Source of the DNA: Rosellinia necatrix
Taxonomy: Eukaryota > Ascomycota > Sordariomycetes > Xylariales > Xylariaceae
Length of the DNA stretch: 64,000 nt
Direction: 5' to 3'
NCBI GenBank assembly: GCA_021209875.1
Contig: JAGYVD010000003.1
Span: forward strand, 310,001 to 374,000
Position numbers and translations under genes: made by a program. Positions 666 to 30,135 of this stretch are shown here, in pieces; position 1 is the stretch's first letter, and each line of letters opens with the position of its first letter. The notes under the pieces were generated by a model that was given only the letters and a program-made list of their open reading frames with translations, was not told the origin of the DNA and made no database searches.

Positions 666-2202
666 ATGCCGGACAAGGCCCCTACCGCCATCTCCGCACC
701 GGGCAAGGTGTTCTTGGCAGGCGGATACCTCGTCCTCGACCGAGAGTACACTGCCCTTGTCTTTGGTCTGAGCGCCCGCATCAACGTTGTCGCCCGGGAG
801 ATCAAGACGAGCCCGGGTGTCCAGCTGAGCGAGATCGTAGTGGACAGCCCTCAGTTCCTGGAGGCCCAATGGCGCTATGGTTACCACCTTGCCCCTGAAG
901 ATGGTGGCATTAAGGTGACACAGTTGCATAGGTTAGTTTGATCATCCCATCTCACACGGCCGGCCGGCCGGCCCCGACTGCTCGGATCCGGTTCAGCGGA
1001 CACATTTACCCTGCCGAGGGTGCAATTGACCAAGTTCTCCTACTCATCAATTGTTCCCGGCAGTTGGCTGCCCCCTACCCTCACACAAACTCATACGGAC
1101 ACCGTGAGGCTCAACATATTAACACGATAATAGTGGCGAGAAAGTCGACTCTAATCCTTTTGTTGAAGTCACATTGTGTTATGCGCTCAGCTACATCGCC
1201 AACACGGCATTCCGTAGTTCACCACAGACCTTCGACCCGGCCCAATTCACTATTCTTGCAGACAATGATTATTACTCCCAGCCTCACTCTATGACCGGCA
1301 CGGACAAGAACCCCACTCGCTTCGCCAAATTCCCCACCACATTGAAGGGTGCCAACAAGACCGGGCTTGGCTCATCCGCCGCTCTTGTCACCGCCCTCAC
1401 GGCCGCCCTGCTGACCTATTATATGCCCCAGGCCGACTTCGACATCACCACCACAGAAGGCAAACGGATACTGCACAACCTTGCCCAGGCGGCCCACTGT
1501 GCGGCCCAAGGGAAGGTCGGCTCGGGCTTCGACATTGCTGCCGCTGTCTACGGTAGCTGCCTGTACCGGCGGTTTTCTCCGTCCGTTCTGAAGGCCATTC
1601 CCGAGGCCAACGCACCAACGTTCGGACCCGCACTCACCAAGCTCATCAACGGGTCATCATGGGACGTCGAGGTCGTCAAGGAGGGTGTCAGCGTGCCCCC
1701 AGGAACAGTCCTGCGCATGTGCGACGTGGATTGCGGCAGCCAGACCGTCGGTATGGTAAAGAAGGTCCTGGCATGGCGCACAGCCAACCCCGACGTCTCG
1801 AAGAAGCTGTGCGATGAACTCCAGTCGCGCAATGTCAAACTCGGCAGCATCCTCAGCGAGGGCAAGCTCGACGAGATCAGACCCGCCGTCGCGGGCATCC
1901 GCGAGCTCCTCCGCTCCCTGGGCACCCAGAGCGATGTCCCCATCGAGCCCGAGAGCCAGACGGCCCTCCTGGACGCCTTGATGGGCATCGAGGGCGTCTA
2001 CAACGGCGTCGTTCCCGGGGCCGGAGGCTACGACGCGGTCGCGTTGCTGATGAAGGACGATGAGGCGACCGAAAAGCGCGTCAAGGACTTCGTCGCCAAC
2101 TGGAGTAAGGAGAAGGGCGGACAGGTCAGGCTCTTGGGTGTCAAGGGCGAAATGGAGGGCGCCAGGAGAGAGGACACGAAGGAATACGACGGGTGGGTTT
2201 AG
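666..2202 (+). CDS. ERG8: Phosphomevalonate kinase
   Basis: GHMP-family kinase that phosphorylates mevalonate 5-phosphate to mevalonate 5-diphosphate in the isoprenoid/ergosterol pathway. The model has two exons, 666-931 and 1134-2202, with an intron at 932-1133 (GTTAGT donor, TAG acceptor). Splicing restores the conserved run SGEKVDSNPFVEVTLCYALS and gives 444 residues. The N-terminus carries the family start ISAPGKVFLAGGYLVL. The GHMP ATP-binding loop GLGSSAA lies near residues 166-172, followed by GSGFDIAAAVYGS. The C-terminus has the GVVPGAGGYDA motif. The length is close to that of other fungal phosphomevalonate kinases. The ATG at 666 was chosen because it places the APGKVFL motif at the expected distance from the N-terminus. 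The gene appears intact and single-copy housekeeping. Confidence 0.95.
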
Positions 2203-4827: not shown

Positions 4828-6020
4828 TTAGCCTCGAGCACCCCGACGCAGTCGATACCGACCGTCCTGGCAGCCCGGCTGATGTCCTAAACCTTCCCAT
4901 CCAGGGAAGCCCACGACCACGAGGGCGGGCGATAGCGGCCGGGCTTCGTCTGGAGATTCCGTCGTCGCCCACGTCAACGCATCTGGCAGCTGCGACTCCC
5001 ATATCCCGGCGAGGTACTTTGCCCCGTTGCGCGGGGAGGCGAACCGCCTCGCGAGCCCGGCCAGGGCGACCAGCTTGTTGGACGGGACGGCGAGGCCCCC
5101 TGGCGGCGGTAGTTCTCGACCACGAGCGTCCAGGCGATGCCGAGGTCCCTCGCGAACCGGCTCTTCAGGCTGAGTCCCGCGCCGTCGCCACTCCCACACG
5201 GGCTCCGCGGCGACACGGTGTAGTGGACGACGATGCGCGCAGCCGGTACGTTTCCCGCGGGCGACGGGCTCCCCGTGGCGGCGATGACGAAGGCATGTGT
5301 TCCCCGTGGATGAGGTGCATGCGGCGCGGCTCGGACGCCCAGTCGCGCGTGTCTCCCGTTGGACGATGCACGGGGCGTCGATCTCTGTGGCAGATGATGT
5401 GCGTGTTAACACGCGCGCGCGCGCGCGTGATGTGACGCCCGCCGCCAGTCGTGGTGGCACCGTCGTGGTGGCCCCGTCGCACGTACCTGGAGATATCGGC
5501 AGCTTGCCTTGCGCGTGATCGTCACGGCGTCGTGAAGCGTTGGCGGGAGTGGCTCGGCGCGTATACCCTTCAGGTGCTCGGCGTAAGTCTCAGCTGTCGT
5601 TGTGAAGTGCAGAGCTGGATCGCGGTCCCAGCAGTAGCTCAGGGCGTAATACTTGATCACTTCGCTCCGATGAAGCCACCACTCGACTAGTTTAAGACTC
5701 GCATCCTTGTCGAGGAGACCGGTATCCACCAATCGTCTTGGGCCTTTGCTTGATGACTTTGTCGGAACTGAGAGGCTTCTGATATGCTTTATGCTTAGCT
5801 GAGCACTCTTCGATCTAGCTACGGACCTTGTCAAAGCACTGGGGGCTGTTGGAATGCTCGAACATGGGTGTCGCTGGCCTGATGCCAAGCCGAGCGAGGT
5901 CTTGTCTAGGGAGGGTGACAATCTCCATTGAGGGGGTCGCATCGTCGGGTCCTTCACAAGCTGCCCGCCATTGTCATCGTAATTGGCAGTCTTGAATACA
6001 TCTTGAGCTCGTCGATGCAA
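4828..6020 (-). pseudogene. Frameshifted HET-domain (heterokaryon incompatibility) gene
   Basis: HET-domain proteins act in fungal non-self recognition and cell death. Reading on the minus strand, the frame at about 5730-5510 contains YYALSYCWD and LPPTLHDAVTITR, which match the start of the HET domain. The following expected blocks appear in different frames: an IDAPCIVQ-like piece near 5370, DWASEPRRMHLIHGEH near 5320-5280, then RFARDLGIAWTLVVENYR near 5150-5100, and SNKLVALAGLARRF near 5080-5030 with AKYLAGIWES and DALTW downstream. These jump among all three frames without plausible introns. The most upstream frame has no ATG before an in-frame stop. An alternating CG tract (5411-5428) interrupts the middle of the domain. 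I read this as a decayed gene. Exact ends are uncertain. Confidence 0.8.
5411..5428. repeat. Alternating CG tract
   Basis: Eighteen bases of almost perfect alternating C and G lie inside the broken HET-domain gene, at the point where its reading frame is lost. Such alternating purine-pyrimidine runs are prone to slippage. Confidence 0.8.
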
Positions 6021-8694
6021 ACGGCATAGCTCATAGGAATGTGGCTAGACTAGCGCCGTGCCGTCCCCCTCATCGCCTTTACACGGGGCATGGTGGTTAC
6101 GAGGCGGAATGGCCAGAACATGAGCGCCATCGCAAACGGCGGAATCATTAACAACCAACGTGCTGCTTCGTACGGCGCGCAGAGAATCGAGCGCAAGAGA
6201 GACGGCATGGCGTATAGCCGCGAGCTTCATGAATATACTCTCCCACTCCCTATTGATACATGATCTTATGCTTATTTTAGTTCCTCGTGTGCCTTTTCGG
6301 CGGTTGTTTGCCAAGTTCACTTCATGCCCAAAGGTTAGGTTGGTATCCTATACTACGCTCCGCATGTCCTGCGGTTAACTGCTAGGAGGGTGAAATGCGC
6401 GCGTCATGTAAGGACGTAGGCACGAACAAGATGTAGGATTTCGTTTTTGCTGAAATGGGTGGCTGCGAAGATACCGAGTTTTGCTTTTTATAGGACTCTA
6501 CTGTGGAAACTACTGTGGAAATTATGACCAGTCACTTTTTGAAGCTGTTTTCTAAGCAATTTCACCACGTCCCATCCCCCTCCCTCTCCCCCGTGCCGTC
6601 TCAGTGCATCCTCCGATCTCGCGCGTGATGCTCTCCTGAGCCCATCCATAACGACAGCGACAGCGACAGCGACACATCGACCTCACAACACTCGCTTCAC
6701 GCCGTGCTAGCCCGCGACAAGACCTTATGGCCCCGACCGATCAAATGGACGAGAGCCCACCTATTGGCGTTGGGTGTTCGACACAGCCACCGTCGCAGGC
6801 GTTACGGTGATGAAGAGGAGAACAGCAGCGACTCCGAGCAGGAAGGCGACTGCGACAGGAACGACGGTGACGACGAGGAAACCCACGGTAGCCTGTCAAG
6901 CGCCGTTGTGATCGAATCCGTTCGTTCGAGCCCTTCATTACCGCCGTCTTTATGAACCGTGCCTAGTCGCCATTCCCGCCACCATGCCCGCCATCATGCC
7001 CGAACCGCACCGAAACCGAGGACAAGAATACGGAGAGCAATACAGACGCGAATCAACCCATCATGGTAGGAAGAACCGTATCCTAGGTTGAGCTAGGCCA
7101 ACCTATTCTTTCAGACCTGGCTTCTGTTCACAAGTCGCGACGAGAATAAATACATGCACGTCTATACCTCACACATCTCCCACGCCCTGCTCGACCGTTT
7201 CCGACACCCCAGCCAGCCCCGTCTACCGACCCCCTAATACGATTAGACCACCGCCGCATACCCTACGAGCCCCCAAACATATTCAGACAACGCCTTTTAG
7301 CTGCCGTCTCAATCACTACCATCGTCAAGATCACCGCAGCCCCTAGCGGAAAAAGGCCGCCGGCGCCCGACGGCTGCGCGGATACTGTCGAACGACTTCG
7401 TCTGTCAGACCACCCCCACCATCTCCTCTGCGGGTTAGACGTGAATCTTGAGCGTAATTCGTGCCCCCCGTGACCGGTTCCGCGCACGATATCCGAAGCA
7501 ACGGAGTGCGGAGTGGGAGCAGCCCCGCTGAGCATCAAGGCCCGACGCGCGCATTCTGCCCTCTGGGCGCTCCATCCGTTACAGCTGCAGGACATGCGGG
7601 GTGTAGGACGTGACGCGTGACGCATGACGCCGTGAGGTTGGCCAGATGGAGGATGCAGGCGCGAGGGTAGCGAAGGAAGAGTCACACCCGCGGTAAGTAC
7701 TGAGGTTCGTGCGCCCGATTGTTAGCCGGCGATACCTGTTGTCGGCCTGGCTAGCCGCTCTGCACTAATGTAATAGACAACGTCCTCCAGTAGGCGCTAT
7801 TGTCATCGACACGGCCGGGGAAGGGGATGTGCAAGGCTTACGAGTCCTCGATCCAACAAGTTCGTGCGTGCATGGGCTCTGGGCCTCTCCTCTCCCCTAG
7901 GGGAGAGGTTGCCGTAAGTATCGTCACTAACATTTTATTGACGCCGTTTTTAATCAATGCTGGGTATAGTATGGGGCTTTCAGATTATTTCAAAGGGATG
8001 ATTACACTATTTGTTGCACGATGTGATGCCTGTGGCCATGCCGGCTTGATACCTTCAAGCATTGGTAGTGCCTGGCGCCAAGTCTGACAATAAACTTGGC
8101 AATTGGAGTTGGTGAATCGTTGATCTATCTATTGGTGAGTTTCATAAGCTACTTGAGTCGGTAGAAGTACAGTGTAAACATCTGGGGTAGATCTGGGACG
8201 CTTTCCTTTTCTTGAAGTGTTTTTGAATGATAACTCTAAGAGCGACAATATATCGATGAATAGGTAGTCGAGGTCGGGATGAAATTGGGTAGGCTTCCTG
8301 TGGCGTTGGGCTTTTTGGGTTTCCGTGGCCCGCGGAGGCCATGTATGGGCTCTTGGCAAAGCCCAATGGGCACCCAGGCCCAATTTGGGCTTGGCATTTG
8401 GGTTGGGTGGGGTTGGGCTCGACAACTCTTCAAGATCGTTGATTTCCATAGAGCACTGATCTTCGCCCCAAGGGGAAATAAATATACTGCTACGCTGTTA
8501 CTCCGACGGGCCAGTCGATGGTCTATGCCATTTGTACAGACTGCGTAACGACTTCGTCAAATTGATGTTATATTACTCGCAGTGGTTCGATTCAGCTGCC
8601 TAGTCTCGAGACTAACTAGTAAGTCCGTCTCACGTCGTCCCGTTAATTCATCATTATCATCAGCTCCCTGCACATCTCCCTGGGAAATACTAAC
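6021..8694. other. Intergenic region before the HET-ankyrin gene
   Basis: I see no supportable gene. The region contains a short GACAGC repeat near 6653-6673, C-rich stretches at 6570-6600, and a TTGGGC/GCCCAA-rich block near 8306-8432. The open frames are short, start at non-ATG codons, and lack any family motif. The last 200 bases should contain the promoter of the HET-ankyrin gene. Confidence 0.45.
8306..8432. repeat. TTGGGC/GCCCAA-rich block
   Basis: At least six copies of TTGGGC or its complement GCCCAA occur within about 125 bases, in both orientations, so parts can pair with each other. The composition differs sharply from the flanking AT-rich DNA. Its origin is unknown. It could be a terminal fragment of a mobile element. 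Confidence 0.5.
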
Positions 8695-11628
8695 ATGGAA
8701 TACGCAGTGAGGTTAATCAACGTTGCCACGAAAACTCTCGAGGAGTTCCACGACCATACTCAACCAATCCCTGCGTACTCGATTCTATCCCATACCTGGG
8801 GGAATGAATCAGAAGAGATATCATTCCAAGAACTGGAAAAGGGACAGATCAAGCAGGGTATCGGGCAGTATAAGCTTGAGCGGTGCTGCTTTCAGGCAGC
8901 CCGTGATGGTCTCTCTTACGCCTGGATTGATACCTGCTGCATAGACAAAAAGAACCCGACTGAATTGGGCGAAGCGATTAACAGCATGTTCCGCTGGTAT
9001 AGGAATGCCAGGGTTTGTTACGCCTACCTTCAGGATGTCAAAGCCGGCGAAAAGCCCCAGAAACCGCAGTCAAGCTTTTGGAAGAGTCGATGGTTTTGCC
9101 GGGGCTGGACTCTGCAAGAACTTATCGCGCCCGAAACATTATACTTTTACGATACCAGTTGGAATCAGCTAGGATCGAAACGCAATCTTGCATCTACACT
9201 CGAGCGTATCACGAAGATTCCTCGAGGGTTCTTGTTAGGAACTTTTCCATTAAAGGATGCCAGTGTTGCACAGCGCATGTCCTGGGCGGCTAACCGTGCT
9301 ACGAAACGCAAAGAAGACCTGGCATATTGCTTGCTAGGAATCTTTGGGATTCATATGTCCATGTCATATGGGGAGGGTGACGGCGTCTTTATTCGCTTGC
9401 AGGAAGAGATTATAAAGCAGATAAATGATGATTCTATCTTGGCTTGGAATTTTGTCGGAGATGGTTCAACCACCGAATCCTCAACCATCGTCACGGGAGG
9501 TGCATTGGCCCCCAGCCCGTCGGAATTTTCCGAGAGTGGCCGTATCGTCGTCCCCAGCACCCCTAGTAGCTCTGTGCAGCCACTAAATACCCTTGGTGGC
9601 AGCTTACGGGCTGAGCGCCGCTTGCACACAGACTCCTCGGGACAGTGCTTTGTTATTCTTCAATGCCATACCAATGATCGACTAGATCAGGCCATTGGAA
9701 TCCCAGTGGCAGCTCGAACTGAAGGATACGATAATTATATAAGGCTACTAGGACGTTCTTCCATTTGGTTGCAACCAAGCGTCTCACAGGCCAACCTGCA
9801 GGACATCCGCATTCCAATCAGACACTCCAATGTTCAAGAGGAAACAAGCCAACGATTTGGTTTCTTCATTGATAATGGCTTGGGGGAAGACCTGCAATTA
9901 TCAGAGGTAATCCCTCAACGGAATTTGGTGAGAAACGACATCCTTATTACCAACGACGACACAAGGTCCGGCAGATTGCACCGTCTCTGGGTAATGTTTC
10001 GACAAGAACAGAAGGAATCTGACAATTTTGTGCTTGTCCTGGAACGTGACTGTCACGAACCACAGCCTCAGGCCTGGTATCACCTAGTGACGTGCGACAA
10101 AGCTATAACATTAGAGGAGATAAAGAATAATTTTGGAAAGGTTAGCACGAAAGATCGCAACAAGCATTCTGCTAGCAACGGCACAATTGAGTTACAAGTC
10201 ACGGTTTCATTAGAGAGACCTGGAAAGCAACCAATGTTTGTCGTGAAATTGCTTCCTGCGGAAGAGAGAGCCGACACCTACAACATCACGAACATGTTGC
10301 AGCAGCATAAACAAGAGACACAAGTCGCGAACGCGTTCCGCACATACTATCAAGTAGTTGATAAGGCCGAAAATTTACAGAAATCCGTCAAGGGTAAGGA
10401 ATTGGAGCTCGACCGAACATCGGGGCAACTTGCCGAAATTGAGGAACAAATGATAATACTCGCGAATGAGCGATCCAAGTTACGCAAAGTGGAGGAAGAT
10501 GCGACTGCCGATCTCGCGAAGCTCAGAGCTGAATCCAGCGAACTCGAGAGATCATCCGCCGCGTATCTAGACAGAGCAAAAACGCTACAACACCGCTTCG
10601 GCATTCAGCATGGACCTATGACAGTTTCAAAGAACGAATTTGAAGACTGGACCGACGAGGTAATGGAGGAGATGCTTGAAAAATTGAGCCCAGAATTGCA
10701 TGAACGTTACCTATCGATATCCGACCTGTCTCATAGGTTTTTACTACTTGCTGCTACAACTGGTCATGAACCACCATTCCAAGGACTTGCTGAGGGGAGA
10801 ATTCGCATCGACATTGCAGCTCGGGATGGCAGTAGCCTCATCCATCTCGCAGCAGGTGGTGGCCATAGGCGCATTGTTCAAACCCTGCTTATCTTAGGTG
10901 CCGATATTGAGACAATGAATAATGACGGCTGGTCACCGTTAATATTGTCGTGTCATTATGGACATACTAACGTGGCCAGACTATTACTGGACAGCGGAGC
11001 CAATATTGAGGCAACTAGTAATATCGGCTGGTCACCGTTAATGTATTCTTGTTGTTATGGACATACTAATATAGCCAGACTATTACTGGACAACGGGGCC
11101 AATATTGAGGGAACTAGTAATATCGGCTGGTCGCCGTTAATGTATTCTTGTTGTTATGGACATACTAATATAGCCAGACTGTTACTGGGCAACGGGGCCA
11201 ATATTGAAGGAACTGATATTGACGGCTGGTCACCGTTAATATTGTCGTGTCATTATGGACATACTAACGTGGCCAGACTATTACTGGACAGCGGAGCCAA
11301 TATTGAGGCAACTAGTAATATCAACTGGTCACCGTTAATGTATTCTTGTCGTTATGGACATACTGATATTGTCGGGCTGTTATTGGATAAAGGCGCTGTT
11401 ATGGATTATTATCCCCAAAGTCAAAGGAATCCGGGAAGGCAGGTTGCATTGATCCACGCGGCAGGCCGCGGTCATAAAGAAACCGTCCAGCTTCTTCTTT
11501 GCAGAGGTGCAAACAAGGATTTGACTGATGAAGGGGGCTCAACAGCGAAAGATTGGGCGACAAAGAAAGGTCATCGTCAAATCTCTGACGTTCTGGGTGC
11601 ATGGGGTACTAAAGGGGCCGAGAGTTAG
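8695..11628 (+). CDS. HET domain / coiled-coil / ankyrin-repeat protein
   Basis: A single-exon gene of 977 residues with a clear ATG at 8695. The N-terminus is a HET domain of the HET-E/HET-D type: YSILSHTWG at residues 28-36, YAWIDTCCIDK from residue 75, and a CRGWTLQELIAP block near residues 134-145. A central region of about residues 240-550 is unassigned. A heptad-rich stretch at about 556-640 should form a coiled coil. The C-terminus (about 700-970) is ankyrin repeats, five of which are nearly identical 33-residue units. Family knowledge: HET domains trigger cell death when a repeat-type sensor recognises non-self. Here the usual NACHT/NB-ARC module between effector and sensor is absent and a coiled coil takes its place. 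Likely cytosolic. The frame is fully open and there is no sign of RIP. Confidence 0.93.
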   Translation: MEYAVRLINVATKTLEEFHDHTQPIPAYSILSHTWGNESEEISFQELEKGQIKQGIGQYKLERCCFQAARDGLSYAWIDTCCIDKKNPTELGEAINSMFRWYRNARVCYAYLQDVKAGEKPQKPQSSFWKSRWFCRGWTLQELIAPETLYFYDTSWNQLGSKRNLASTLERITKIPRGFLLGTFPLKDASVAQRMSWAANRATKRKEDLAYCLLGIFGIHMSMSYGEGDGVFIRLQEEIIKQINDDSILAWNFVGDGSTTESSTIVTGGALAPSPSEFSESGRIVVPSTPSSSVQPLNTLGGSLRAERRLHTDSSGQCFVILQCHTNDRLDQAIGIPVAARTEGYDNYIRLLGRSSIWLQPSVSQANLQDIRIPIRHSNVQEETSQRFGFFIDNGLGEDLQLSEVIPQRNLVRNDILITNDDTRSGRLHRLWVMFRQEQKESDNFVLVLERDCHEPQPQAWYHLVTCDKAITLEEIKNNFGKVSTKDRNKHSASNGTIELQVTVSLERPGKQPMFVVKLLPAEERADTYNITNMLQQHKQETQVANAFRTYYQVVDKAENLQKSVKGKELELDRTSGQLAEIEEQMIILANERSKLRKVEEDATADLAKLRAESSELERSSAAYLDRAKTLQHRFGIQHGPMTVSKNEFEDWTDEVMEEMLEKLSPELHERYLSISDLSHRFLLLAATTGHEPPFQGLAEGRIRIDIAARDGSSLIHLAAGGGHRRIVQTLLILGADIETMNNDGWSPLILSCHYGHTNVARLLLDSGANIEATSNIGWSPLMYSCCYGHTNIARLLLDNGANIEGTSNIGWSPLMYSCCYGHTNIARLLLGNGANIEGTDIDGWSPLILSCHYGHTNVARLLLDSGANIEATSNINWSPLMYSCRYGHTDIVGLLLDKGAVMDYYPQSQRNPGRQVALIHAAGRGHKETVQLLLCRGANKDLTDEGGSTAKDWATKKGHRQISDVLGAWGTKGAES
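10924..11400 (+). repeat. Five near-identical 99-bp ankyrin units
   Basis: Units begin at 10927, 11026, 11125, 11224 and 11323, each exactly 99 bases (33 residues). The 102 bases at 10924-11025 are identical to 11221-11322. Units 2 and 3 differ from each other at only a few positions. The flanking ankyrin repeats on both sides are much more diverged, which indicates recent internal duplication or gene conversion. Confidence 0.95.
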
Positions 11629-12346
11629 GATATCTTTGGCAGCAGCAGTAAACAGACATTACGCCTCCTGCGCTCGACATTTAAGACAAAAACACCAGCA
11701 GAATACAAAGAAAAACGGGGCAATAGTTTGACTTCAAGCTGACGGGCATGCAAGTTGGTTATCTAAACAGTATGGACTGATAGGAAAAAGTTTGTATTCT
11801 ACTGGTTTCCTTCTCTCACTTTGTATACAATATGAATCTCCAGGTAATAAAATTACACACCTTTATGGCCGATAACATGTTTTGCCTCATTCATAACAGA
11901 GATTGTGCAATTTGGTTCATTATCGATCTACTACCTAGACGTAGTGGTGGTTCTCTAACCCTCTTATGAAAGATGACGACGAAAGGTACCAGTTTACATG
12001 GGTAATGACGACTTGATAATTACGAGTTTCTTCTATGTATAGCTACTGAAGTTGACTATGGTGATAAAAACAAGTTGATAGGTGGATATAGAGGACTATT
12101 CGATTGGACTAGCATCTCGCAGACTTCATTACTTATGCATATTATTCCTTCATCTGTAAAATTCGACAGCGAATTATTGCATTGGCCTATTAGGTCCCCT
12201 CGTTATATTCTAAATCTGCGGTTGAAAGGTCCCATGTTATCCCCAAGGGAACCTCTATTGTTCCCTGAAACGGGTAGTTTGCTTCATCACGCTTTATCTA
12301 CAGCTTCGAGCCGGGATCACCACCATCCTTATCCATCCCTTAGCCA
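11629..12346. other. Intergenic, tail-to-tail
   Basis: This AT-rich stretch lies between the converging HET-ankyrin and ISG12-like genes and should hold both 3' ends. No gene or conserved motif was seen. Confidence 0.5.
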
Positions 12347-12980
12347 TCATTCCCCCCCCTGGCCGTCCTCGCGCGTAACCTGCCCCTTATCTTCATCCCC
12401 CGTTGCACTTTCATCTTCCTGGCCCCTCGTGCCCCTGAAAAGCGATGCGAGCCCAGCGGAAGCAACCGCCACGCCGCCCATGCCCTGAACGGCGCCCGAG
12501 ACCATAGCGACGCCGTACCCGCCCGCCCCGGCGCTCTGCAGCGCCGCGAATAGGGATGGGGCCAGGACGCTGCCGATGCTGCTATGGGCGCCCGCGGCGA
12601 TGGATCCTGCCGAGCCATGTCCTGCGTCAGCTGATTACGATCATGGTGGGGGAGGGGGGGGAGGGAGGAGGCTCTGTCGGTGATGAATCCGGTCGGCGGA
12701 AGTAAATAATGCAGGTAGGAATCGTCCACGTACCAGCTACGATGCCATTCGCGCCGAACCCGACGGCCGCTAGCGCCGGTGCCGCCACTAGCATCGGCGC
12801 AGCAGCCAGCACCGTGCCGGCGCCCACCGCGGCCGCCTTCGCCGGATTTGTTGCTGCCCAGTCCATTGCCTGCTTGCCCTTGGTCGCGGCTAGGGACCGC
12901 GCTGCCGAGACGGCGCCGCTGGGCTGGTTGATGGACGCTGCCAGATTGGCGGTCACGCTTTTGAAGGCGGTAGAGAACAT
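12347..12980 (-). CDS. ISG12/IFI6-IFI27-like small membrane protein
   Basis: Two exons on the minus strand, 12980-12734 and 12606-12347, with an intron at 12733-12607 (GTACGT donor, CAG acceptor), give 168 residues. The start MFSTAFKSVT was chosen because it begins the conserved part. The protein has a hydrophobic Ala/Gly-rich core: KAAAVGAGTVLAAAPMLVAA, then the junction GFGANGIVAGSIAAGAHSS, then GSVLAPSLFAALQSAGAGG. The GIVAGSIAAG pattern with a downstream LQSAGAGG is the hallmark of the interferon-induced 6-16/ISG12 family, which is widespread in fungi but of unknown function there. In animals these are mitochondrial or ER membrane proteins affecting apoptosis. The C-terminus is charged (Glu, Asp, Lys). 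The exact N-terminus could be about 24 residues earlier, but that extension looks like leader sequence. Confidence 0.82.
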
Positions 12981-15043: not shown

Positions 15044-15622
15044 TTACTCCCTTCCATCTAGGACTAAGGGGATTTGGGGCTCCTTCTCGTATTCTATTCC
15101 TTTCGCTCTTGGTCGGAAGTTAAATCGCTTTGGTGCGAGAAACCTCATGTTGATACCTGCCTCCTCGAGCATACCATCAAATTTTGCCTCATCTTCTGCC
15201 CGGGTCTCTCTGGCTTCGAATTCGGGGAGGCCCTCGTAAACATCATGGGGTAGGGCGTAAGAGATATCAAAGTCGACAAGCCACCCGTCCCTGAAATTTT
15301 CCGCCCGCACATCTCTGTTGTAGATCACTAGTCGGTTCAGCAGCCAGATATTCCTAAACATTTTTCGGATCTGCTGCGGGGTTCGCGTATTGAGGCTCGG
15401 ACCTGCGATTTCAAAATCATTTACAATAGCACGAGGTTTCCCGGCTCCTCCTATGATAGGGAGCAACTCGTCGTTAAGGTTTTCGGTTCCCAAGTTAATG
15501 CCTTGATCTTCTAGCCATCTTTGGTCTTTGGCACCGAGGAAAATATATCCGTGATACTTCGTCGCGATTCTCCCCGCGATTTCTCCCTTATCGGTGGCTT
15601 CCTTGGTTCGGCCACACCCCTA
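15044..15622 (-). pseudogene. FTA2 / protein-kinase-like fragment
   Basis: The minus frame is open from about 15622 to the stop at 15044. It reads GYIFLGAKDQRWLEDQGINL followed by a kinase-like segment with YNRDVRAENFRDGWLVDFD, resembling the catalytic loop and metal motif (H/N-x-D-x-R-x-E-N, then VDF) of the fungal kinetochore Sim4 subunit FTA2-like family. The C-terminus is basic. The exon appears to start after a TATAG acceptor at about 15623, but I cannot identify an upstream exon carrying the N-terminal half and an ATG. It may be a truncated gene or the last exon of a gene whose 5' part I cannot read. These families are highly expanded in filamentous fungi and often degenerate. Confidence 0.5.
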
Positions 15623-15873: not shown

Positions 15874-17873
15874 TCAAGACCCCGTGACCTCCGTAGATTC
15901 AAGCCTCATCTCGTGCACCTTTGTGGGATAGGCGCTGATGTCAGGCTTGCTGATCTGGTCCAGGCGAGAAAAGTTAGAGAAGCCGCCTTGTATGCTGTCC
16001 GCTGTGAACCCCTTCGCCCTCAGCACACTTGTGGCCACCCTGGAGGTGTCGCCGTCGTAGCAAATTACCAAAACCCTCTTGCCTTGAAGGACACTTAATA
16101 GATCTGCGTCAAGAGAACTGAATGTCTCTTCTAACTGTGTCCATACAGTCGTCATGACGGCCGGATCCGAGAAAGGGCTCGGGTTCGAAGGGAGCGCGAT
16201 CGGTAGATTCGTAGATTCCGGTACCTGGTACGTGTGGAAGTCTGAAGGCTGGCGAAGATCAACAACAGAGACATCGGTCTTGGGAATGAGGATGTCCTGA
16301 AGTGATAGGTTGATAGAGGACCGGATGCTGTGTAGCAAGTTGAACATATTTGGGACCTCGAAGAAGTCTTGGAGTACGTCGAAGCAATCCCGCTCCCAAG
16401 CTTCATCATAACGATACTTGTCGACTTTCGTAAGTTCCTTGCAGCATGTCAGCAGCCTTCATAGTATATAACGCCGAGCAGTTTGGAACTTTAGCATACC
16501 TGATTCTTTATGGCCGGGAATCGTGCCTCTTCTAACTTGTCGTAATATTCATCAATGTATTGGTAAGGTAGATCGCAGCACAGGAAGACGCAGTGGATGC
16601 CCCCATCGGGGCCGGAAAGGCTGCTCAGCGACCCTTTTGCCTTGCATTTTTCGAGATATTGGAAGAGCCCCTTCAGGTTGAAGCCGGATGACGGGCCGCA
16701 GATGATTCCCTGGCGGCACAGGTCTAGTGATAGGGAGAAGGAGTCATAAGATCCCACATGCTCAACGTGGTCGGTTGCGTCCTTCCACGGGAACTTGATA
16801 GGAGCTAGCAGTGCGTATGAACGCGGGCCGGGAACGCGATCGCCAGCAGTCGTGACGACGCTATGCAGGTCAGCCCGAGTCCTTCAATGAGTAGATGCCA
16901 GCACGAGATTCACTTACCCTAACCGGAATACTGAGGGCTTAGCAGTTTTGAAATATGTGCCAAGACCAGTGATCGTGCCTATTGTCAGAGGTCAACATCA
17001 ATGCTTACATAAACAATAAATATAGAGTAGCTCACCGGATGTCCCCATGCCAGCGCAAATCAGAGTGATCTCGGGTAACTGTCGTAACACGGCATTAGCA
17101 GACGAATAGATGAGCCAGAGGCGACTATGGTCCAAGATTAAGTGCTGACCTGCTTTAAGATTTGAGGGCCAGTCCATCTGACATGTGATTTCCAGTTCTA
17201 AACAGATCGAATCAGCTATACGTACTAGCGATTAGATGTATGTAAGTGTCTCACGTTATCGCTTTCGTATTGATTTGGGTTTATGATATCCTCAGTCTTC
17301 TCAGCCAACTTTTCAGCTGCGCGGATTCCTCCACGGTCATCGACAGGTTCCGGCTGCGACGGCCCGCCGAAAAGAGTCCTGATAAGTGAGATTAGTGTAG
17401 AGATCACGTAACCACCGGCGTTAGGGTCTCACAAGTTAAGGCCAAAAAACCTCATTAGCTTGAGTTTGGCATCACTTGTCTTGTTGGAGAGAAAAGCCCG
17501 GACATCTGTTATGTCGTGGATGGCCCGGGCGACCATCGACATGGAGATGACTGTCGAGCCGGAGCTGTACTCAACGACGGTCTTGGTTTTACCAGGTATC
17601 ACTGCCTTCTCGAGTAACTCCATGGCTGAAAAGGAGTGTAAATAGTAAGCTTAAGATGGTTGATGAACCGTCGCACTTACCTGGCATGCATTTGACGTTG
17701 TTTGCCGCGTGTGCGCCCATTAATTTAGCATAGATATGCACACCATCTTGGTAATATGGGTTGAGACATGGCGGTATCTCTACAAGTGGTAGAGGAGGTG
17801 TTGAGTCGGGGTCAAAATATTGCTTGACTGCATCCTGACCCCTATAAACGTTGAGGAAATTACTTTCTGCCAT
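15874..17873 (-). CDS. Cysteine-synthase-fold PLP enzyme fused to rhodanese
   Basis: Eight exons on the minus strand: 17873-17681, 17625-17433, 17378-17255, 17197-17150, 17078-17036, 16978-16918, 16860-16500 and 16437-15874. All introns are GT-AG and the frame sums to 528 residues. Residues about 25-340 are a fold-type II PLP domain: the likely Schiff-base Lys61 in NNVKCMP, the substrate loop YSSGSTV, and the phosphate-binding loop GMGTSGTITGLG. The family includes cysteine synthase, beta-cyanoalanine synthase and cystathionine beta-synthase. Residues about 385-510 are a rhodanese domain with Cys467 in the active-site loop CYDGDTSR. The start ATG is the first in frame after a stop. The gene is divergent from the MFS gene. 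Sulfur transfer or cyanide/sulfide handling is an inference. The exact substrate is unknown. Confidence 0.88.
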
Positions 17874-24499: not shown

Positions 24500-26822
24500 A
24501 TGGTAGGAGGCCGACGAGATTCAACGGCGAGACCGGACAAGGCCATAATTCGGAAACGTGCATGTGACATATGCTACAGAAGAAAAGTGCGGCTGGTTAT
24601 CGAACACCGCTTCATTCGGGGGCATCTGCTAATATTGCTCAATATTCAAGATCCAATGCTCCATCCCAAGTCCGGACTCCCCATGCGAATGGTGCAACGA
24701 CCATTCCCTCTCTTGTACGTTTAACAGAGAAGCACAGAAGAGAAATAGGAAAAGGTAAGTTCCTCTTTACGCCGAGCCCAATTTTGGTACTATTCCACAA
24801 TGTGTCATTCACTCTCTGATGCGAGATTGTCTAATTGATTTTGGTAGGCTAAGATTGAGCGACTTAGAAGGTTTATTCAGTCGGGTTGAAAAACTAGAAA
24901 ATACTCTTGCTAAAAGTCGTACCAATCGTCTATCGATCCGCCCAGTCCTTCTTGAGGTCGAAAGTCTGGTATCTCCTTCGCTCGATAATGGAGATGACGA
25001 TATCCTTGAATCCGAACCCTCGGCCAGTCCCTGTATCACGCCCAGCGCGACGGAATCAATCGCGTCTCCCCTTACCTCCGTACCCATTGATGCTCAACCT
25101 ACCTACCTCTCTCTCGGGCAAAATGCCGCTGCCGGCATGCCCCTCGCACACTACTGGTACTCAAGAGGAATCCCCCTTCTGTCCGACCGAGGTCACCGAT
25201 ATATCTATGCGAAGACAAGTCAAGATGTTGCCATCGAGAAGCTCCGAGTCGCTAGTTTCCGGTTTACCATACAGCGTCTAGCTCTACCAGAATTTCGTCT
25301 CAATCGAGAGTTGTGGGAGCTGCCTCCGAAAGAGACTGTTCAGGAAATAGCTTCAATATTTATTGGATCGCCCTTACAGAGAATATTTCCTGTCCTGGAC
25401 GATTCGCTATTCAAGGAGACAATTGAGGAGGCATACGGTTTAGCTGATGAGACACCTTCACCATTCCAAGCACAATCAATCGCCTGCGTCTTTGCCGTGC
25501 TTTCGATCTTCGATTGTCTAAGGTCATCAAAATCTCTGACTATTCAAGACAAAGACACATACGCTATCAAGGCGCAGTGCATTCTTGGATACACAATGAC
25601 TGCTGAAGCTAGTGTAGCCGGCCTTCAAGCAGCTCTTGCGCTTGTAGGCCTGGCTATGTTTTACTGCATGTTTTTGGTCTGGATTATCACTAACTAGATA
25701 TTAGGAACGATACTATACACTGAATTCTCAGACACAAAGTGCTACCGTATTACACGCTATCGCGTGTCGTATGGTTTGCGCGCTGGGTGGACATACCTAT
25801 AAACCAGCAAGGCGTGCCAGTTCTGAACTCACTTGGGCGGAACATCAAGGGCATCATTTGCGGACGCTGTTCTGGTTATGCTATACCTCCGACAAAGACA
25901 TCACCCTCCGTTCGGGGCAGCCTCCTCTACTCATCGAAGAGTATTGTGATTTGGCGATCCCCAAAAATTTTACCGACTACTATACTCAACTCCAGGGATC
26001 CGGTGGGGTGGTAACTGGCGACGAGTACTATCTCTACCTTCGGGGAAACTCAGATCTCTATCTCCTCAAAGAAAAGATTCACCGCCTCTTATTCTCCGCT
26101 CGTGCATTTAAGCTTAGCGATGGGGAACTCGTCCTGCGCATTCGCCAATTGGACGACGACCTCGAAAGCTGGCGGCTATCTATACCGCCGGAAATCCGGC
26201 CCAAACTCTCTATCCCCCCATCTCAGATAGCACCAGTTCAAGATCCATCCATGATACCGGACATTAGGTCTTCCCACATTCAACTAGAGTATCACCACCT
26301 AGTTATCGCTATACATACAACTGTTAGAAGATGTGGCTCCGATAACCCAGACCATAAGGATTTGCCGGAGGATCTCCACAGCGTTATTCACTCCAGCTGC
26401 GATCTTTCTTTGGAGGCTAGCCGTTCAACAATCACATTTTTAAAGAGCTCTGCAACTAGGTTAGCGGAACAAGAATTCAGGTAAGGCAATGACCTCATTC
26501 CCCCTCCCCCCCCCAAAAAAGGGGGGCTTCTTGACTAAGTTGAACCTGTAGTGACATCATCTTCTATGCCACCCTTGCAGTGGTTTCGCTATTTATCGAT
26601 ATTCTTGCGCATCCTCAAAATCCACAATCTCACACCGCACTTGAATACCTTTCATATGCAGTAAGTATCATTCAGAGTTTATCTACGCCCACATCTGCAC
26701 CAGGTCGGCTCAAGTGCATACAAGAGACAAATCGCTTTATAACGGAGCTTATACGCCTGGGTAGCTGTGCCATCGCGAAGGCGGAAAGAGACACTACGAA
26801 GACAGATGTCGTACCATCTTAA
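24500..26822 (+). CDS. Zn2Cys6 fungal-specific transcription factor
   Basis: Five exons: 24500-24586, 24651-24754, 24848-25643, 25705-26480 and 26552-26822, giving 677 residues. Splicing intron 1 (GTGCGG donor, TTCAAG acceptor) joins ACDICYRRK to IQCSIPSPDSPCEWCNDH, producing the full zinc cluster C-x2-C-x6-C-x8-C-x2-C-x6-C at about residues 22-50. A basic linker (REAQKRNRKR) and a short coiled coil (LEGLFSRVEKLENTL) follow, as in homodimeric Gal4-type factors. The middle homology region (about 180-600) is the fungal-specific transcription factor domain, with HAIACRMVCALGGHTY and LRTLFWLCYTSDKD. Intron 3 (25644-25704) was preferred because it has an ACTAAC branch site and restores frame. It probably regulates the adjacent MFS and synthase-rhodanese genes. 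That is inferred from position only. Confidence 0.92.
26502..26526. repeat. Homopolymer C-A-G inverted repeat inside an intron
   Basis: A run of C is followed by six A and then six G within intron 4 of the Zn2Cys6 gene. C-run and G-run can pair into a hairpin with an A loop. It lies between donor and acceptor and does not interrupt coding sequence. Confidence 0.8.
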
Positions 26823-27533: not shown

Positions 27534-28259
27534 TCATACGTGTCCATACCGGTTATGGCGCTTGATGCAACGCTGAGCTTCTTCCTTACGGTTGAATCTC
27601 TTGATACAGCCAGGCCACGGGCAGGTTGTAGGATTGCTACCAGCCCTAATGCATTCTTCATGGTGTGCCACAAAGTGTCGCAGCAACTCAGCTTCGGTGA
27701 TAGTGGTGAGTTCACATCCGGGCCAGCCACACACCACGCCGGGGTGTTTGTCGAGGATATGTCGGTTGATGTATCTTACGTGCGACATAATCTTGCCACA
27801 GTGTGGGCAGGAAGGACGAACAGGATGATTGGCGTTGTCGTTATTGCCTCGTCTAGGTCGCCGTTCGTTGTTCTGCGGCATGTCGACAGCTTCAGCAGGT
27901 TCTTCGTACTTCCCCCCGCCTTCGTAGTCGATAAATTCGTCGAAGTTGACATTGTCTTCGTAGTTGGTACTGTTTTCGTAGTTGATACCTCCTTCGTAGT
28001 TGATACCGCCTGCGTAGTTGATACCGCCATCGTAGTTGATACCTCCTTCGTAGCTGATACCGCCTGCGTAGTTGATACCGCCTTCGTAGCTGATACCGCC
28101 TGCATAATTGATGCCGTCGTAGTAGTTGTTGTTGTTATTGTTCTCGTTCTCCATCCTGAAATACGGCTCCATTATTCTAATACCATTCGACGAATAGGCC
28201 TCGTGTTCTTCCTCAGCTCGGAGTTGGGCCATGGTGGTCTCCTCTTCGTTATACGCCAT
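27534..28259 (-). CDS. C2H2 zinc-finger protein with GGINY repeats
   Basis: A single-exon minus-strand gene of 241 residues with ATG at 28259. The N-terminus is acidic, followed by a poly-Asn patch (about residues 40-46), then nine tandem six-residue units of the GGI(N/S)Y(A/E/D) type (about 47-100). A basic linker (RRPRRGNND) precedes three zinc-finger-like elements: CPHCGKIMSH...HILDKH, CGWPGCELTT...HFVAHH, and CPWPGCIKRF...HNRYGH. The fingers are of the kind seen in uncharacterised filamentous-fungal C2H2 proteins and are probably DNA-binding and nuclear (inference). The long antisense frame across the repeats is a shadow. I do not recognise an ortholog name. Confidence 0.85.
   Translation of the reverse strand: MAYNEEETTMAQLRAEEEHEAYSSNGIRIMEPYFRMENENNNNNNYYDGINYAGGISYEGGINYAGGISYEGGINYDGGINYAGGINYEGGINYENSTNYEDNVNFDEFIDYEGGGKYEEPAEAVDMPQNNERRPRRGNNDNANHPVRPSCPHCGKIMSHVRYINRHILDKHPGVVCGWPGCELTTITEAELLRHFVAHHEECIRAGSNPTTCPWPGCIKRFNRKEEAQRCIKRHNRYGHV
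27959..28120 (-). repeat. 18-bp coding minisatellite, nine units
   Basis: Nine head-to-tail units exactly 18 bases apart, starting at 27959, 27977, 27995, 28013, 28031, 28049, 28067, 28085 and 28103. Each encodes one GGINYx hexapeptide of the C2H2 protein. Units alternate between Asn/Ser and Ala/Glu/Asp variants in a higher-order pattern. Confidence 0.95.
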
Positions 28260-30135
28260 TGAGAAGCAGTTGTTGACTTGAGCTTACAACAATGTTAGCA
28301 ACGGTGATGAAATACATCTTTTGAATACTTACACGAGCGTGTGAGAGTTCTTTATAGTGAACGAGTTACAATTTGTTCAGTAAAGGGATGGATTTGGACG
28401 ACTGTGTAGAGCAGCGTGTATGACGGCAAAAGAACGGTGGATGAGAAAGAACAGAAAGTGAACAATACAACTGAAGAGGTGCCGATATTTGTATGAACAT
28501 ATTTGGGAAAACCTCTTTGGGACAGAAACTTCGCTTGAACTGTGATTTCAGCATGTTTCGGGAAGGACTGGAGTGAATATGTATCTGCACGAAATATCTA
28601 TGTTGTCTACCCAATAGAGACCTTCAAAATCGACGAGGGGCAAAGTAAATACTCAAGGCACTCAAGGTACTGAAACTATCGAGCCTACTCGAGTTACTCA
28701 AGTCACTCAAGTAAAGTACTGAAGGTGCTCAATCAAGGTATGATGATTTATTCCCTTGCTACTAGAAGTTTGCATCTTCTATGTAGTGATCTGTTGTGGG
28801 ACAATGCATCGAGGTAATATGTTGAGTGCCACAAAGGTGTCTCATCTACCGAACTTCGGCTATGAAGTTAGAAAATGTTGTTAAACAACTCGCACAAGTA
28901 TAGTAACTACTCGGTATGAAACGATTGCTAGTGTTATGACCAAATATACCTTGAATCAGAAACTAAGGAACTATTGTTTGGTGGCGTTGAATTTGTTGCC
29001 TAAGCTTTTCGAACAACCGAATTGCCTTAATTCAGAGTTAAGTGCATAGAGAAAATCGAGTGGAAATATTCATTTTCAAAGTGACAGGTTATTATATGCA
29101 AGAATGGGAGGGAATCAAACTTCCTAGTAGCAGCCCTTCATCTAACATAAGAGATAGTGGCAGAGAGTGAAGTGAGCCGCCTTTTAGTGTAGGTAACAAT
29201 TGCGGTTCAGTCATCCTTACGCTTTCAACTGTTTAAATTTTCGTTTACAAAGGGAACTAGATGATCAGAGGCAAAAGTAATTGAATAGTTCAAAATAACA
29301 ACAAATGCCGAAATTCTGATGTTGTAAAATCACACGAGTGGCGAAGGAACCCTTATTACCAACCTAATCGATTCAGTCCTGTATACCTAGTTTCCTATCT
29401 AGTTACCCATGTTGCTGTCTCCGCCTTAATAGAGGTAATGGTAATGTTGATATGATTGCAAAAAGGCCGTCACTATAAGGCATATACAACGAAACGGTTC
29501 TCTACGTAGGGATTTTTGCCCCGGTCACGAGACACAACGAAGAAGACAAACGGGAGGTTCTCGAACCCATCCCCTGTACGCGAAATGTGCATAGCATCGA
29601 TGATATTTTCCTTGGTTCATCATCTACCCGATCCAGCCGTATCCGACCACCTGCAACGCCACAGTATGAAAGACGCCAAACGTCCAGAAACAAGATGGGG
29701 GGAAGAGAAAAAAAAAATTCTGACACACACATACACGAAGAACACACCACAAGGCCCCTCCTCGACCGAAACCTATCGCAATGGGCGATAGGGGCGGATC
29801 GCAGTCGGGGGCAGTGCTTTCAAGGATTGGTATAATAATCGAGGAAGCTTGACGCCGGGGAATGATGGCGATTCGTAGTCGGTCGCCAGATAAAGAAGGG
29901 GAAGTTGAAAAAAAGGGAAGCAATGGCTAGAGTACATGGGAGAGGTCGTGCTGCGCAAGATAGTATCATTGGTCCTGCTCAATATCTCCTTATCTGCATA
30001 TCGACGGGTTTGTGTGCATATGGTGTATGCCACAGTAGCCATTATGGCGTCCGTCTCTCCGTTACCAGACATCAGCGCGACGATAGAATGCGTGGCGATA
30101 AGTGCTACCCGCAACAGCGCCGAGAACATTCCATC
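28260..30135. other. Intergenic
   Basis: No gene supported. At 28643-28740, ACTCAAGG-like octamers recur about ten times with small changes (simple tandem sequence). The rest is AT-rich until 29500 and then purine-rich. A frame at 30129-29773 begins with ATG but reads like untranslated 3' sequence of the next gene. Confidence 0.45.

Follow-up and report, generated by a model that had tools for sequence, protein, structure and literature searches.

The window, a stretch of 64,000 nucleotides of the Rosellinia necatrix genome to which all coordinates below refer, contains a gene whose product is, in our judgment, rather probably a receptor-like HET protein, lacking NACHT, that takes part in non-self recognition. 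In favor of this reading come the layout of its domains, the identity of ankyrin units 1 and 4, the turnover of the units, and the comparison with a second R. necatrix protein, P0001, which matches this gene one to one and is 81% identical to its product, against 98.9% for a neighboring kinase. On the other side stand the small basis of two sequences, a gap in P0001, dN/dS values below 1, a weak enrichment of variable positions at binding sites, and the point that incompatibility genes are a minority among HET genes. That the role is strain incompatibility itself is a proposal we make only tentatively, the sensing of other organisms being the alternative target.

Layout of the gene and its surroundings

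The gene occupies one open frame that starts with ATG, ends with TAG and has no internal stop, which confirms the original prediction of an intact frame of about 2.9 kb carrying 99-bp ankyrin units. Apart from the array, described below, its parts are the following.

8695..11628, + strand: whole gene, 977 aa, intronless single open frame (list of open reading frames; homologs align from the first residues)
8695..9444, + strand: HET domain, residues 1-250 in the model; the Pfam HET match (PF06985) covers residues 28-119, i.e. 8776-9051
9490..9819, + strand: beta-rich segment, residues 266-375 (AlphaFold2 models), where BH (het-B, Podospora anserina) has its HAD domain
9844..10260, + strand: fruit-body-lectin-like domain, residues about 384-522
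10288..10608, + strand: two long helices, residues 532-582 and 590-638, forming a coiled-coil-like hairpin (model; weak Pfam match)
11419..11625, + strand: C-terminal ankyrin cap, residues 909-977 (model helices 918-969; 81% identical to P0001)

The Pfam scan recognizes the HET domain with 48 bits, the cut-off of PF06985 being 22.5, and places ankyrin families in the C-terminal third, where the helix pairs of the modelled array run to the C-terminus; together with the long-helix segment of the model, these are the three parts that had been announced for the protein. The AlphaFold2 model (66 aligned sequences, mean pLDDT 84.7) has a pTM of 0.46, so that the relative placement of its domains is unreliable. 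The best 50 rows of a fold search with the whole model were all ankyrin proteins, some of them designed, or complexes of these; as this search was silent on the middle of the protein, the middle was modelled separately. A second beta domain is predicted at residues 390-521, with two short helices at 473-488. The beta-rich segment that precedes it is likened to HAD by position alone; the fold comparison barely covered it. Rod_CreS, a coiled-coil-like Pfam family, matches residues 539-635 weakly, below its cut-off.

No NACHT, NB-ARC or other NTPase family was found in the Pfam scan of the gene, which by this measure is not an NLR (STAND). The original prediction had a coiled coil replacing NACHT. 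This idea is not supported: the HET domain is followed by the beta-rich segment and the lectin-like domain, and numerous filamentous ascomycetes (among them Xylaria, Ustulina, Colletotrichum and Trichoderma) have proteins of this long layout, so that nothing was swapped in the window gene. Many of the 120 listed homologs (P0001-P0120) align over 88-99% at 33-58% identity, and an NTPase domain is present in at least one of them (P0071). Two 33-aa stretches alike at 29 positions or more occur in 33 of 121 proteins, that of the window included; in 6 of the 121 the stretches are identical. Besides, the relatives P0050 and P0073 carry in one chain HET, an ankyrin array and, behind it, WD40 repeats, which makes two repeat sensors in succession.

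A second HET fragment lies at 5406-6044 on the - strand, facing away from the main gene; this open piece of 212 aa matches the first 56 of the 146 HET positions (29.2 bits) up to a frame break, and may represent either a decayed copy or one exon of a gene with introns. Downstream, the next gene (about 12340-12980, - strand), with about 1 kb between its end and that of the HET gene, resembles, when its two exons are joined, the interferon-induced 6-16 family, PF06140, with 23.5 bits, below the cut-off of 29.1. Further on the - strand, the ranges 15263-15613 and 15967-16281 give matches to an FTA2-type kinase-like family (PF13095, 44.7 bits) and a rhodanese-like family (PF00581, 24 bits). The frame at 27534-28283 (- strand) has no Pfam match and contains about ten 18-bp repeats (27916-28128) that encode a GGINYE-like motif.

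The ankyrin array

The consecutive 99-bp units of the array start at 10924, 11023, 11122, 11221 and 11320, and follow the order A-B-B'-A-C behind a diverged unit.

10825..10923, + strand: ankyrin unit 0, diverged (13/33 aa in common with unit 1; 26/33 with the same-place unit of P0001)
10924..11022, + strand: ankyrin unit 1, type A (identical to unit 4)
11023..11121, + strand: ankyrin unit 2, type B (85/99 bp against unit 1; 92/99 against unit 3)
11122..11220, + strand: ankyrin unit 3, type B' (92/99 bp against unit 2)
11221..11319, + strand: ankyrin unit 4, type A (99/99 bp against unit 1)
11320..11418, + strand: ankyrin unit 5, type C, half alike, then cap (71/99 bp against unit 2; 27/33 aa against the last unit of P0001)

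Tandem Repeats Finder reports the array at 10900-11369 with a period of 99, 4.7 copies and 84% matches. Of the five near-identical units first described, all five are there as consecutive 99-bp units, but the likeness holds for four only: units 1 and 3 still share 78/99 bp, whereas unit 5 departs from unit 2 by 3 mismatches in its first 45 bp and continues as a diverged cap. The identity between units 1 and 4 extends over an exact tract of 103 bp (10923-11025 = 11220-11322), one base above the 102 previously counted, with 3 mismatches across the following 42 bp. Such an exact repeat exceeds the chance expectation, and the absence of any synonymous difference between units 1 and 4 means either a recent copy or a converted one. 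A single unequal exchange where unit 3 adjoins unit 4 could produce the order A-B-B'-A-C. Taken together, units 1-4 have a mean pairwise identity of 81% over 132 aa, below the high internal conservation defined by Dyrka 2014 (identity above 85% across at least 100 aa); the pair of units 1 and 4 alone is 100% identical at the protein level.

The differences among units 1-3 are mostly transitions (9/14, 15/21 and 6/7), and their dN/dS values of 0.85, 0.61 and 0.36, drawn from about 22 synonymous sites, are all below 1, which does not support positive selection among these units. RIP was also rejected as their source: by dinucleotide indices, the TA/AT ratio of the array (0.88) is not distinct from that of the window (0.84). 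Exchange with other genes fares no better, the DNA of the array matching only itself in its own genome in a search that skips very common words. Variable positions are weakly enriched at the binding positions, which we take to be those of DARPins, when both R. necatrix sequences are used (p = 0.04 and 0.01); for the window gene alone the values are p = 0.25 and 0.10.

How unusual such a repeat is can be judged from exact direct repeats counted at 60-2000 bp spacing elsewhere in the genome. In 25 other HET loci (L001-L008, L011-L026, L028), each extended about 1.5 kb beyond the match so that a far C-terminus can be missed, the longest is 22 bp. Two further open frames that combine HET with ankyrins, L011 and L016, have in the sequence examined no exact repeat longer than 12 and 10 bp, respectively, and L031, which covers more of the array of L011, has 13 bp. 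The ankyrin control comprised 40 of at least 73 places (contigs 1-5 plus one of contig 7): repeats of at least 45 bp occur in four of the 40, L037 (125 bp), L049 (124 bp), L039 (52 bp) and L042 (45 bp; the same place as L027), and NLR-type domains are found in three of these four, L039 having ankyrins only. Outside this count, L029 has an exact repeat of 73 bp and L032, a NACHT locus, one of 116 bp. Near-identical repeats elsewhere in this genome are thus mostly in NLR-type genes. The internal repeats of 116-125 bp in L032 and in the NLR-type ankyrin genes L037 and L049 make these loci turnover candidates in their own right.

A diverged second sequence from R. necatrix

The best homolog of the window protein is P0001, also from R. 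necatrix, with 75% identity over the best local stretch and 657/814 identical residues (81%) in a global alignment. Conversely, the best place of P0001 in the genome studied here is the window gene (80%), the next one reaching 43%. P0001 and the kinase P0121 both stand on contigs of 41,932 bp; read as one contig, they would form one locus, and P0001 and the window gene probably come from the same one. P0001 carries three ankyrin units against five here. The flanking units match by position (26/33 for the unit before the array, 27/33 for the last) and the internal ones do not; among the latter, units 1 and 4 are the nearest to the middle unit of P0001 (28/33), followed by unit 2 (26/33) and unit 3 (24/33). 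Three versus five units at what is probably one locus indicate that the array turns over, which supports the active evolution originally proposed for the gene.

The count of units could be wrong in the window array, or in the shorter one of P0001, through an assembly error. Short-read assemblies often get near-identical repeats wrong (PMC12222747), the R. necatrix W97 draft comes from short reads (PMC10796067), and P0001 may derive from such reads. Nevertheless the frame is open through the array of the window, and the window genome fits the long-read R18 assembly (PMC10796067), the identity of the strain being only likely. Moreover adjacent units of P0001 share only 25/33 and 15/33 residues, and this dissimilarity makes a collapse of its array less likely, if still possible. 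On the whole we consider an erroneous unit number very improbable, and retain a true turnover of the units.

The divergence from P0001 is distributed over the entire protein, beyond the repeats: identity is 86% in the HET part, 78% in the beta-rich segment, 83% in the lectin-like domain, 82% in the hairpin and 72% in the linker, and 73-87% in the ankyrin units, where only two residues of unit 3 and none of unit 4 are aligned. P0001 lacks the first 97 residues, which may point to an error in its gene model or to a copy that is not active. This breadth of divergence does not sit well with an ordinary fast-evolving HET-ankyrin gene, whose units would exchange by themselves in a housekeeping, stress or developmental role foreign to recognition; nor does the finding that such repeats are otherwise mostly in NLR-type genes in this genome. 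Such a gene would agree with the dN/dS below 1 among units, with the weak enrichment at binding positions and with the role of most HET genes being described as unknown (PMC10890737). We hold this explanation to be unlikely, and a part in non-self recognition to be the better account of the gene. Against a part in incompatibility count that in Podospora 4 of 132 HET genes are incompatibility genes (PMC10890737), that the majority of HET genes are considered to serve other ends (PMC12881547), and that in A. oryzae incompatibility did not result from most of the HET alleles assayed (PMC11138114).

The extent of the divergence can be weighed against a conserved neighbor, 6.5 kb upstream of the HET gene.

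1123..2202, + strand: phosphomevalonate kinase, open frame of the 3' part, used as yardstick against R. necatrix P0121

This kinase and P0121 are identical at 353 of 357 residues (98.9%) in a local alignment, and a global alignment gives 98.3% over 359. The HET gene diverges by about 19% where the kinase diverges by about 1%; nothing else points as strongly to allorecognition as this contrast, which is drawn from two sequences and a single conserved yardstick. A second yardstick was sought in a fungal transcription-factor gene at 24759-26484 (+ strand; PF04082, 24 bits), whose best listed relatives are from Xylaria, at 65% at most; R. necatrix is absent among the 53 proteins listed.

The same contrast could arise without balanced alleles, if the two sequences came from R. 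necatrix lineages that parted long ago, or from sister species, and the gene were simply fast-evolving. The strains of R. necatrix are grouped in two clusters, and between R18 and other strains the effectors show up to 26% SNPs (PMC10796067), so that the background divergence may exceed 1% and the kinase may understate it; furthermore HET homologs of other genera share 45-60% in residues 98-711, and the kinase there 74-84%, which is what a fast-evolving gene would give. On the other hand the kinase, 98.9% identical here, falls to 84-85% against Nemania, the next genus, and scaling by the ratio of the two genes predicts about 3% divergence for the HET gene instead of the 19% observed—an estimate, the proteins of other genera being possibly paralogs. 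Separated lineages are thus a possibility that we take seriously while doubting it.

Proposed function and comparison with known systems

HET induces cell death (PMC10890737), and C-terminal repeats or lectin folds are tied to recognition (PMC10890737, PMC12222747, PMC4986451). By analogy, recognition in the window protein would be ensured by the array, perhaps with the lectin-like domain, and death would be driven by HET. By Pfam and the models, the core consists of an N-terminal HET, a TIR-related death effector, of the beta-rich segment and of the lectin-like domain, laid out as in BH; the helical hairpin may mediate self-association. Units would be copied and reordered through unequal exchange within the array; the ankyrin surface, possibly together with the lectin-like domain, would bind a partner from another strain or organism, and this binding would gather the HET domains and start cell death. 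Divergent alleles may persist as rare recognition types are favored. The complete picture, an allorecognition receptor of R. necatrix free of NACHT, with a het-B-type lectin-like domain, a shuffling ankyrin array and old divergent alleles, is put forward as a speculative one. If true, this receptor would join both known modes of HET recognition, the lectin fold of BH and the near-identical repeats of the HNWD NLRs; and if the gene acts in incompatibility, the shuffling of repeats for recognition variety would need no NLR, a HET-lectin core being sufficient. For strain rejection in R. necatrix, of which nine long-read strain assemblies are described (PMC10796067), the gene is a candidate that can be put to a direct test; incompatibility restricts the passage of mycoviruses between fungal isolates (PMC10890737).

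The closest parallel is BH, to which the window protein is likened by layout and models. Like BH, the window gene is a single exon with HET first, a beta-rich segment next and then an actinoporin-related, lectin-like domain (PMC10890737 for BH), so that in the models a predicted lectin fold stands behind the HET and HAD positions. Its second sequence is also strongly diverged, 81% between the window gene and P0001 compared with 69% between BH1 and BH2. At the opposite, BH stops after the lectin fold (622-638 residues), whereas the window protein continues with the helical hairpin and the ankyrin array. Fungal PII-like genes contain an intron, and some BH orthologs have no PII-like partner; here 3.8-8.6 kb and 11.6-16.4 kb, translated in all six frames, gave no Pfam match to such a partner, a search that an intron-bearing gene may escape. 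In Podospora the lectin-like domain of BH sets the specificity, and the het-B alleles share 69% (PMC10890737).

With the HNWD proteins HET-E, HET-D and HET-R (HET-NACHT-WD40) the window gene has in common the HET domain placed first and near-identical C-terminal repeats in variable number (PMC4986451, PMC12222747); it differs by the lack of NACHT/NB-ARC, by ankyrin rather than WD40 repeats, and by the fact that exchange between genes is not seen in its own genome. PNP_UDP/NACHT/ANK and other fungal ANK NLRs have near-identical ankyrin units and repeat-number polymorphism too (PMC4986451), while the window gene has no NTPase and a different effector. Conserved ANK repeats, polymorphism of their number and diversifying selection are published for fungal NLRs (PMC4986451), so that near-identical repeats are not new by themselves; what appears new, from the sequence, is the combination of these repeats with a het-B-like core and the candidate allorecognition locus in R. 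necatrix. As judged from titles and the openings of abstracts, a HET-lectin-ankyrin combination was not found described in the papers listed by the literature searches. Finally, the HET and ankyrin proteins P0001-P0120 have the long layout in common with the window gene and differ from it by the sequences and numbers of their units.
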